Assembly: GCA_030064835.1 (NCBI GenBank)
Contig: JASJEE010000012.1
Coordinates: 1-35,627 of the forward strand
Direction: 5' to 3'
Length of the DNA: 35,627 nucleotides
DNA from: Microcoleaceae cyanobacterium MO_207.B10
GTDB lineage: Bacteria > Cyanobacteriota > Cyanobacteriia > Cyanobacteriales > Microcoleaceae
A program made the translations under genes and the position numbers. Below are positions 30,403 through 33,957 of this stretch, one piece after another. The notes beneath the pieces were generated by a model. That model did not search any database. It was not told the origin of the DNA and saw only the letters and a program-made list of their open reading frames with translations. Every line of letters starts with the position of its first letter. Within the stretch, counting starts at the first letter, position 1.

Positions 30403-30440
30403 ACTGAATTGGAGAATGCTAGGTTTTAGTACAAGATTCT

Positions 30441-30549
30441 AGTGGACCGACACGTCTTAAATGTTGCTTTAGCAAAAATGCTCAAACCTCGCCAGAGTAA
30501 TAATTACACGGAAAAAGCTAATGTACCATTTTAGCTGTGTCAGTCCACT
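30441..30549. mobile_element. 109-bp MITE with 13-bp terminal inverted repeats
   Basis: AGTGGACCGACAC (30441-30453) and GTGTCAGTCCACT (30537-30549) match as inverted repeats at 12 of 13 positions. The inside is non-coding. The right end also occurs, alone, at 6208-6229. It lies between convergent genes. Confidence 0.7.
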
Positions 30550-30566
30550 TTAATCAGCAAGCCCTA
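30550..30566. mobile_element. Solo insertion-sequence end motif
   Basis: TTAATCAGCAAGCCCTA directly abuts the MITE. The same motif ends the 237-bp element (23811-23828, TTGATTCAGCCAGCCCTA) and recurs at 34872-34885 (TTAATCAGCAAGCC). Confidence 0.4.
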
Positions 30567-30649
30567 TTTACACTTCTTCTCTTAAGACCTACCACCGCGC
30601 AACCTATAACCAAGCAATGTAGCAATATTTTATGAAAATTGTATAACTC

Positions 30650-31987
30650 CTATCTCTTAGCATGGATATAATCAACAAAGTAAAATTGAGGAATTAACCA
30701 CAATTTTAACCAAGCATAAATTCCCATTCCTAAAAGTGCCGTAATTACTAAAGGCAAACCTATTTTGATCCGCAAATTATCTGGAAAAATAGCAACTCCA
30801 GACACAATAATTATGAAATAAGTTAGAAGTAAAAATTGTAATCTTTGTAGATTTTTTAATGCCTCCCGACAACTACTACAATGCTGAGTATGTTGTTTGT
30901 AACTATCCAATAGTGAGGCATGATTATTATTTATTAGAGAGTTATTTGAATGACTAATTCCCACTTCATTCCAAGGTAATTTACCATGACAATATTTATC
31001 AAACCAATTCCTAAACTCAATTACTGAACGGTCTGCACTTGTAGGTAACTTATAAGTTGTTTTCCAACTTTCACTTGATTGTTTTTGTTGTAGTAAATGC
31101 TCCTGCTGATTTAGCAAAACCATATCTCCATCAAAAGTCAAATTCCAAATTTTAAGATGATTCCACCAACGGGGTATTAACCGATGAATTGTTTTAGCAA
31201 AGTTCCGAGAATATTGAACAACAATTCTAGATTTTCCAGGGGATACAGGCAAACAATAAAGAATAAGTCCTAATTTTTTTTCACTATTAGCAATACTAAC
31301 TAAATATTCTAACCGACAAGGAGGTTCAAAATTAATTTTTACAAGATTGTTTCCATTGGAGAAATAGAAAATTTCAGTTAAATTGATTGTTGATTGTACA
31401 ATCTCCATCACTATTGGTATTGCTTTGTTTCTATTACCTTGTACTCCGTGATGAGAAAAAGGAACATGACTCGGATCTCCTACATTTTCTACTAGAATTT
31501 GCCAATCATATTCTAGATCGCGGACATAAGAAGACCACACAAAACCTTTCTCTGCATCTATGTTTGGTGATAATGGTAGGGGTGTTGTAGCAGCTAGGTC
31601 TGCTGTTTTTGCATCAGGCCAAACCCAAAGTAAATCATTTTCTTGACGCACTGGTAAGGCAGTTGCACAGAAATTTTGCCGATTTTTTGCTATGATTTCC
31701 TGGTTTTCAGCTTGAGGAATATGGGTACAGATACCTTGAGAATCAAATTGCCAACCGTGATAACTACACATTAAATTACCAGTTTTGTCATCAACACGAC
31801 CTTCGCTTAATGGTGCTAAACGGTGAGGACAAATATCTAAAAATACCTGGTAATTCTCAGAATATCTTGGCTTCCAAATTACTAAACGCATTCCCAACAG
31901 AGTTACGGGAACAGGAATTTCTGGGTCAAGGTCTTCAATAGGTGAAAGAGGATACCAATGCTGAAAAAAGTTGAATTCGGTTTGCAT
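30650..31987 (-). CDS. Rieske non-haem iron oxygenase, PaO/TIC55-like
   Basis: The 445-residue protein begins with a Rieske domain (about 8-125) whose 2Fe-2S ligands are C53, H55, C74 and H77 (CPHR and CSYHGW). The catalytic domain has the mononuclear iron motif NVGDPSHVPFSHH, offering D171, H174 and H179. Two predicted membrane helices sit at the C terminus (about 385-401 and 409-431), preceded by C370-SS-C373. A C-terminal membrane anchor plus CxxC is the layout of the chloroplast group PaO, TIC55 and PTC52 and their cyanobacterial relatives. Pheophorbide-type tetrapyrrole oxidation is known for PaO, but the substrate here is unproven. The 3' end is duplicated as a stub at 32102-32193, upstream of this gene's own start. 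Confidence 0.9.
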   Translation of the reverse strand: MQTEFNFFQHWYPLSPIEDLDPEIPVPVTLLGMRLVIWKPRYSENYQVFLDICPHRLAPLSEGRVDDKTGNLMCSYHGWQFDSQGICTHIPQAENQEIIAKNRQNFCATALPVRQENDLLWVWPDAKTADLAATTPLPLSPNIDAEKGFVWSSYVRDLEYDWQILVENVGDPSHVPFSHHGVQGNRNKAIPIVMEIVQSTINLTEIFYFSNGNNLVKINFEPPCRLEYLVSIANSEKKLGLILYCLPVSPGKSRIVVQYSRNFAKTIHRLIPRWWNHLKIWNLTFDGDMVLLNQQEHLLQQKQSSESWKTTYKLPTSADRSVIEFRNWFDKYCHGKLPWNEVGISHSNNSLINNNHASLLDSYKQHTQHCSSCREALKNLQRLQFLLLTYFIIIVSGVAIFPDNLRIKIGLPLVITALLGMGIYAWLKLWLIPQFYFVDYIHAKR

Positions 31988-32101
31988 TTTATTTGTTTTT
32001 ATAGTTAAAAAAATTACAGTTTAGGAAAAATTCGATGACTAGATTTCATCTTACTAACTTTGGTTTCTATATCTATATTTTTACATACTTTTGACAACAA
32101 T
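31988..32101 (-). other. Short upstream region of the Rieske gene
   Basis: AT-rich DNA between the Rieske start and the stub of its paralogue. It should contain the promoter, but no good -35/-10 pair or terminator is visible. Confidence 0.35.
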
Positions 32102-32193
32102 TCATTTTTTCGCATGAATATAATCAACAAAATAAAATTGAGGAATTAATGAGAATTTCAACCAAGCATAAATTCCCATTCCTAAAAGTATCG
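32102..32193 (-). pseudogene. 3' stub of a second Rieske oxygenase gene
   Basis: Minus-strand translation gives LLGMGIYAWLK, then LIPQFYFVDYIHAKK and a TGA stop at 32104-32102. This matches the last 28 residues of the neighbouring oxygenase (residues 418-445), with a few changes including KLW to KFS and the final R to K. About 30 codons remain; the body is gone and an 85-bp tandem array begins exactly where homology ends. It shows that a tandem paralogue once stood here. Confidence 0.85.
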
Positions 32194-32408
32194 ATCTAGT
32201 TCAACTCAAGATTTTTTTGGCAGTTTTATTATCTCCAGAGAAACGAAGAAAGAATAAGGAATAAAAAAAAGTAGATCGATCTAGTTCAACTCAAGATTTT
32301 TTTGGCAGTTTTATTATCTCCAGAGAAAGGAAGAAAGAATAAGGAACAAGAAAAATAGATCGATCTAGTTCAACTCAAGATTTTTTTGGTAGTTTTGTCA
32401 TCTCAAAA
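32190..32408. repeat. 84/85-bp tandem repeat, about 2.6 units
   Basis: Units begin ATCGATCTAGTTCAACTC at 32190, 32275 and 32359. Each contains ATTTTTTTGG and an A/G-rich tail; the third is cut off near the trpE stop. The units are near-identical, so the array is recent. It is non-coding. Confidence 0.92.
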
Positions 32409-32421
32409 GCTATTCCCTGTT

Positions 32422-33957
32422 TTAATTACTTTTCAAACATCTAATTGCTTCCAACAAACCTCTAGCTTTATTAATAGTTTCCTCGTACTCTGTTTCCGGT
32501 ACAGAATCTGCAACTAAACCAGCTCCCGCTTGCACAGTCACAGTATGTTTACCATCACTTTTGGGCCTAACAACCATAGTTCTGATAGTAATAGCACTAT
32601 TCAATTGACCATCAAAATCATAATGTCCATAAACTCCAGAATAAACCCCCCGGCGACAAGGTTCTAATTCATTAATAATTTCCATGGCTCGAATTTTCGG
32701 GGCACCACTCACAGTTCCCGCAGGAAAACAAGCTTTCAATAAATCCCAAGCAGTTCGATCATCTGCCAATTCTCCCACTACATTACTGACAATGTGCATC
32801 ACATGAGAATAACGTTCAATTACCATTAATTCATCAACTTTAACTGTTCCCACTTGACAAACCCGCCCCAAATCATTGCGCCCTAGATCGACTAACATAA
32901 TATGTTCCGCTCTTTCCTTGGGATCTTGCAACAACTCTTCAGCTAAAGCATTATCTTCTGCATAAGTTTTGCCACGACGACGAGTACCAGCAATAGGTCT
33001 CACAGTTGCAAGGCGTTTACCATCGGGCGTGTTTTCTGCTTTTACCATCACTTCCGGACTCGAACCAATAATTTGCCAGTCACCAAAATTAAAATATGCC
33101 ATATATGGGGAAGGGTTTATTAGTCGCAAGGAACGGTAAAGACTAAAAGGTTCTCCTGTATATTCAGTGGAAAGTTGTTGGGAAATAACTACCTGAAAAA
33201 TATCTCCTGCTTTGATGTAGTCTTTAGCTTTCTCAACGTTGGCACAAAATTCTGCACGAGGTGTGTTACTGGTGTATAAATCTGTAACTTCTTTGTCTTT
33301 TTCTCCTGGTGGTTGCCATTCTAATAAAGTATTTTGTTGTGACAGGGGAGATTGTAATTTCTCTACTAACTTAGAGACGCGATCGCAAGTTTCTTGATAA
33401 ACTTTTTCTAAGTCTACCTCTGGAGAACTAATATCGGCGTAGGCGATCGCCCAAATTTTCCGTTTTACCTGGTCAAAAACCAACAAATTATCCACCTGCA
33501 TCCACAAACCATCAGGCAAATCATTTTCCGTAGCAGGGTAAACAGCAACACGAGGTTCGATCCACCGAATCAACTCATAACCCCAGAAACCAAATAATCC
33601 CCCAATACCAGAAGGTAATTGAGGTAATTTTACAGGTTGATAGGGTTGGAGACAGTTATCTAGAGCATCAAAGGGATCGCCCTCAAAAGTTTTAACTGTA
33701 CCATCCCGATAAGTTTGGGTAGTATATTTCCCTTTTGCTGCTAAAGTCCACAATGGGTTACAACCTAAAAAACTATAACGTCCTATTTTCTCCCCACCTT
33801 CCACTGATTCTAGTAAAAAACTGTAGGGTTGATCCGCACAAACGCGATACCAAGCTGAAACGGGTGTATCGAGGTCTGCTACCCATTCTTGGTAGACAGG
33901 GACAAAGTTACCTTGTTTTGCTAGTTGGGAAAATTGGGAGAAGTCTGGAAATATCAT
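32422..33957 (-). CDS. trpE: Anthranilate synthase component I (TrpE)
   Basis: The enzyme converts chorismate to anthranilate, the first step of tryptophan synthesis, using ammonia from the TrpG glutaminase. The 511-residue product is full length. The N-terminal domain has the regulatory LLES motif (48-51), the site of tryptophan feedback in the family. The chorismate-binding domain includes IGSSPEVMVK, RPIAGTRRRGKTYAED, EHIMLVDLGRNDLGRV, then CFPAGTVSGAPKIRAMEII. The TrpG component is not fused and is not in the window. It sits next to psaD, an order known from Synechocystis. No leader peptide or attenuator was recognised upstream. The start is the ATG at 33957, without a strong ribosome site. 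Confidence 0.95.
   Translation of the reverse strand: MIFPDFSQFSQLAKQGNFVPVYQEWVADLDTPVSAWYRVCADQPYSFLLESVEGGEKIGRYSFLGCNPLWTLAAKGKYTTQTYRDGTVKTFEGDPFDALDNCLQPYQPVKLPQLPSGIGGLFGFWGYELIRWIEPRVAVYPATENDLPDGLWMQVDNLLVFDQVKRKIWAIAYADISSPEVDLEKVYQETCDRVSKLVEKLQSPLSQQNTLLEWQPPGEKDKEVTDLYTSNTPRAEFCANVEKAKDYIKAGDIFQVVISQQLSTEYTGEPFSLYRSLRLINPSPYMAYFNFGDWQIIGSSPEVMVKAENTPDGKRLATVRPIAGTRRRGKTYAEDNALAEELLQDPKERAEHIMLVDLGRNDLGRVCQVGTVKVDELMVIERYSHVMHIVSNVVGELADDRTAWDLLKACFPAGTVSGAPKIRAMEIINELEPCRRGVYSGVYGHYDFDGQLNSAITIRTMVVRPKSDGKHTVTVQAGAGLVADSVPETEYEETINKARGLLEAIRCLKSN

Follow-up and report, generated by a model that had tools for sequence, protein, structure and literature searches.

A short copy of the 3'-end of a Rieske oxygenase gene lies between that gene and a trpE gene in the window, the 35,627-nt stretch of DNA analysed here. 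The question is whether this stub is what is left of a second gene, a small piece copied on its own, or a repeat of another kind. The source is a Trichodesmium/Okeania-type cyanobacterium, and its draft assembly consists of 465 contigs and is 83% complete.

Organisation of the locus

The features of the locus are listed below by coordinate. The intact gene is designated copy B and the putative lost gene copy A; D and U denote the flanking segments between the stub and copy B.

30565–30648, strand not given: dispersed ~85-nt repeat abutting the copy B stop codon, in place of the native 3'-flank (genome copies, aligned)
30650–31987, minus strand: intact Rieske/PaO-type oxygenase gene, copy B, 445 aa (open reading frame and Pfam domains)
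31988–32061, minus strand: U, native 5'-flank of copy B (match to the Trichodesmium trpE–Rieske intergenic region)
32075–32101, minus strand: D, native 3'-flank of the putative lost copy, straight after the stub stop codon (fixed-register match to Okeania post-stop sequence)
32102–32191, minus strand: stub, final 30 codons of putative copy A, TGA stop codon included (direct repeat, genome search and codon alignment)
32190–32405, strand not given: 2.5 copies of an 84–85-nt repeat, between trpE and the stub; putative boundary of the copy A deletion (repeat analysis, array match in Hydrocoleum)
32422–33957, minus strand: trpE-type anthranilate synthase component I, upstream neighbour and synteny anchor (Pfam Chorismate_bind and Anth_synt_I_N)

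The product of copy B has Rieske (PF00355), PaO (PF08417) and VanA_C (PF19112) domains, all above the Pfam cut-off, and is a membrane Rieske oxygenase of the PaO type. A trpE gene adjoins the Rieske gene also in Trichodesmium erythraeum GBRTRLIN201 (G007), Hydrocoleum CS-953 (G034) and G019. A literature search found no published work specific to this locus.

Extent and uniqueness of the stub

A direct repeat of 86 nt (30652–30737 and 32104–32189) has 90% identity between its two members, which share the same orientation and are spaced 1,452 bp apart. The first member belongs to the 3'-end of copy B, whose C terminus reads ALLGMGIYAWLKLWLIPQFYFVDYIHAKR before the stop. The second, the stub, reads ILLGMGIYAWLKFSLIPQFYFVDYIHAKK up to an in-frame TGA stop codon of its own at 32104–32102 and is located between trpE and the Rieske gene, upstream of the copy B ATG and on the minus strand like copy B. 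Thus, the initial annotation was right to report thirty codons with a stop of their own that correspond to the C-terminal end of the intact oxygenase, upstream of its start and in the same orientation. The coordinates given there, 32102–32193, are accurate to within ~4 nt, but the clean match to the gene stops at 32189, at the start of the 84–85-nt repeat array. An apparent continuation of the homology into the array in tblastn (residues 401–403, to 32239) is a weak in-frame run with a stop and was not counted.

When used as a query against its own genome, the stub matched only itself and the tail of copy B (E = 1.6e-26, 91% over 81 nt), and with copy B DNA as the query, the stub was likewise the only match besides copy B (E = 2e-25). 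The genome, 83% complete, yielded no third copy of the stub, and blastn and tblastn detected no part of copy A other than the tail. The stub thus has no copies elsewhere in the genome, as a dispersed repeat or mobile fragment should have, and its location within a mobile element was ruled out on the same ground.

The stub most likely does not function in its own right: its coding capacity is limited to the last part of the C-terminal hydrophobic segment, neither catalytic domain is present, and substitutions have accumulated in it.

Over 81 aligned nt, the stub and copy B differ at 9 positions. Copy B shows 1–7 differences from the genes of nine close relatives and the stub 8–13; with the Okeania and Hydrocoleum genes only, the ranges are 1–4 and 8–12, respectively. 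Relative to the nearest genes, ~8 changes are private to the stub and 1 to copy B, and no change common to the stub and copy B but absent from the relatives was found in this comparison. The pattern is star-like, with the stub at much the same distance from each close relative. As judged by these sites, the divergence is drift on the side of the stub, as expected of an unconstrained fragment. The amino-acid changes had been taken initially to mean that the intact gene was not recently copied. That step does not follow, since nearly all differences are found in the stub alone and hence do not date the duplication. Dating from 81 nt was rejected as not possible: the aligned sites fit a duplication on either side of the Hydrocoleum split.

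Sequences flanking the stub and copy B

The spacer between the stub stop codon and the copy B ATG is 114 nt long. Judged by the relatives, nucleotides 1–27 resemble a 3'-flank and nucleotides 41–114 a 5'-flank of the gene. The first 25 nt of the 3'-flank-like segment D were compared in fixed register with the sequence following the Rieske stop codon in relatives, and matched at 21 of 25 positions in Okeania G018 and G012 (p ~1e-7 for each) and at 20 of 25 in Okeania G023 (p ~2e-6). In these three loci, which, being of a single genus, do not count as independent, the in-register placement was the best by 3–5 matches. The match to Hydrocoleum was weaker (15/25, p = 5e-4). The D match is short (25–27 nt) and its significance positional; D on its own was not picked up when the whole spacer was used as a genome-wide query.

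The 5'-flank-like segment U shares 81% identity over 74 nt with the trpE–Rieske intergenic region of T. erythraeum G007, with a local score of 78 against a shuffle maximum of 32, and the genome-wide search with the spacer found the same region at E = 8e-13. The final 29 nt of U also match Hydrocoleum. The junction between D and U falls within 32062–32074. In the direction of transcription, the order is therefore stub tail, native 3'-flank, native 5'-flank and copy B; the fragment is oriented like the intact copy, and the 3'-flank of one copy is joined to the 5'-flank of the next. Such a join between copies of the same direction is the footprint of a head-to-tail duplication. It is the strongest evidence for deriving the stub from a second copy in the same direction.

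The 3'-flank of copy B itself matched the post-stop sequence of any relative at only 4–12 of 25 positions, none significantly, and the final two codons and stop codon of copy B differ from those of all relatives. The ~85-nt repeat at 30565–30648, which has ~40 places in the genome at 75–98% identity, stands here in place of the native flank, and this accounts for the sharp divergence of the stub and copy B at their very end. Two dispersed repeat families lie between the convergent P450 and Rieske genes, the ~85-nt one (~40 copies) and one of ~108 nt at 30440–30547 (few copies).

The repeat array at the edge of the stub

On its upstream side, the stub passes directly into the array, which runs almost up to trpE and occupies a single place in its own genome. 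The same array (86%, E = 9e-51) is found after trpE and 5' of the single Rieske gene in Hydrocoleum G034, where no stub was found and the order is trpE, array, gene. Hence the array has long adjoined the gene on its 5' side, and the position of the stub is that expected for the 3'-end of a first copy. An origin of the array from the lost gene was ruled out by its position in stub-less Hydrocoleum and by scattered partial relatives elsewhere.

At the 5'-edge of the stub, the array reads GATCGATCTACTTTT, the gene reads GCACTTTTAGG and the junction reads GATCGATACTTTTAGG. The motif ACTTTT is common to both sides of the breakpoint, which is only suggestive of a deletion at microhomology. The array also contains the palindrome TAGATCGATCTA. 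Partial relatives of the array (~56 nt, ~80%) are scattered through other genomes of the family.

The locus in related genomes

Two adjacent Rieske genes were looked for in related genomes, as the initial annotation had proposed, and all relatives examined have a single gene at this locus. Neither the nine close loci nor the remaining named ones contain such a pair; the sole second gene beside a Rieske gene there is a 35% paralogue on the opposite strand (L127). An apparent second copy in Hydrocoleum (G034:C152:1-53, 96%) repeats the sequence with which contig C1087 ends and was discarded as a contig overlap. Single-gene relatives were half of what had been named as grounds for rejecting a lost paralogue; the other half, a stub free-standing as a repeat elsewhere, was not found. 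Like Hydrocoleum, G019 and G007 have trpE adjoining and no stub upstream of the gene, which is compatible with a lineage-specific duplication. Two full copies in a relative, or other detectable parts of the lost copy, would support a duplication but are not required for it; gain and loss can be lineage-specific.

In T. erythraeum G007, two decayed copies of the Rieske 3'-end lie directly downstream of the intact gene (L040:6153-6559). These are tandem units of ~184 nt, made up of the last ~123 nt of the gene and ~60 nt of flank, and the second is interrupted by an N gap. Like the stub, these repeats (L040/L083) are a part of the 3'-end of the same gene, duplicated and decayed beside the intact gene. 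Unlike it, they are located downstream, are contiguous and comprise only the tail and its flank. They are most simply explained by an event independent of the stub. A ~220-nt internal Rieske fragment (gene nt 708–928, 84%) at an unrelated locus of the same genome (L184, G007:C92:34268-34496) is another pseudogene piece.

Conflict between the Rieske and trpE trees

In the trpE tree, the window groups with Hydrocoleum (SH-aLRT 98) and the Okeania sequences group together (100). For the Rieske gene (30650–31987 of the window and orthologues L075–L083), monophyly of the five Okeania genes was rejected (p-AU 0.00013), as was monophyly of the window and Hydrocoleum (p-AU 0.0005); these p-values are somewhat optimistic, as the groups tested were named after a first quick tree had been seen. 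The Rieske gene of the window groups with no donor in the tree. Divergence at four-fold sites is lower for Rieske than for trpE between genera (0.24 versus 0.35) and higher within Okeania (0.21 versus 0.12). The 5'-flanks remain genus-specific, that of copy B being of the type of the window's own clade.

The strong tree conflict, which concerns Okeania as well as the Trichodesmium/Hydrocoleum clade, the four-fold divergence and the genus-specific 5'-flanks together suggest that the gene body was likely exchanged laterally or recombined. Ancient hidden paralogy is disfavoured as the only cause of the conflict, since between genera the synonymous divergence of the Rieske gene is lower than that of trpE and not higher.

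Origin of the stub

The stub is probably the tail of a mostly deleted upstream copy that arose by head-to-tail duplication and then eroded. A unit consisting of the 5'-flank, the Rieske/PaO gene and ~27 bp of its 3'-flank would have been duplicated head to tail beside trpE. The upstream copy A would then have lost its own 5'-flank and first ~416 codons by one or more deletions ending at the 84-bp array. This would leave the last ~28–29 codons, the stop codon and a short native 3'-flank joined to the 5'-flank of copy B. Separately, the dispersed repeat stands in place of the native 3'-flank of copy B. As nothing of copy A beyond its last ~29 codons survives, duplication of the whole gene is an inference, as are the order of events and the mechanism of deletion. 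The original reading, an older tandem paralogue that was deleted, thus holds for the remnant of a second same-direction copy, to which the flank junction testifies, but "older" is not established by changes private to the stub.

The duplication and deletion of a gene may be replaced by one event, the copying of a piece of ~115 nt (the tail and 27 nt of 3'-flank) by template switching or slippage, with no full second gene ever present. The ~184-nt repeats of G007 show that the 3'-end of this gene is prone to local copying. However, those repeats are contiguous and downstream, whereas the stub is 1.45 kb away, upstream and in the same direction, and a 3'-flank joined to a 5'-flank is the arrangement that head-to-tail duplication gives without further assumptions. 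Such a short insertion is therefore considered unlikely. An artefact of the draft assembly, a dispersed repeat or a chance resemblance might also come to mind at a locus with other repeats, but these are hardly credible given the E value of 1.6e-26, the presence of only two copies in the genome, and a 9% divergence between the copies with a flank that matches genomes of other species, unlike a misjoin.

The tree conflict raises a further alternative, in which a single crossover placed an incoming allele of a related genus next to the resident one, giving a merodiploid, and the resident was then mostly deleted, so that the stub and copy B would be xenologues and not duplicates formed within the lineage. 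The lower between-genus and higher within-Okeania divergence of the Rieske gene is what lateral exchange would give. On the other hand, copy B has a 5'-flank of its own clade and groups with no donor, and the 81 nt of the stub, with 8–13 differences from each close relative, cannot place it. Such displacement is very unlikely. Likewise improbable is the broader scenario of repeated exchange of the gene by Okeania with the Trichodesmium/Hydrocoleum clade, its genus-specific flanks remaining in place and the stub being the last piece of a displaced resident copy. Head-to-tail duplication followed by erosion remains the preferred explanation.

Comparison with known gene remnants

The genome of Trichodesmium is given as ~40% non-coding (PMC4649490). 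The stub is a well-preserved example of one way in which non-coding DNA can be added to the genomes of this clade, which are rich in repeats: a gene is copied, and erosion of the copy between repeats follows. The conflict between the Rieske and trpE trees is a more useful lead than the duplication scar.

Formation of truncated pseudogenes by tandem duplication and subsequent deletion is a general process in bacterial genomes. Compared with its parent family, the PaO-type oxygenases defined by Rieske and PaO domains, the stub has neither domain and only the end of the C-terminal segment. It shares with tandem-duplication pseudogenes a same-strand partial copy next to the intact parent, a junction of 3'- and 5'-flanks and a higher substitution load in the fragment. 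Nothing essential sets it apart from an ordinary member of that class; only ~29 codons remain, and the edge of the deletion lies in a tandem repeat array. The event is therefore ordinary in kind, a pseudogene scar that is unusually well documented by the DNA on either side of it.
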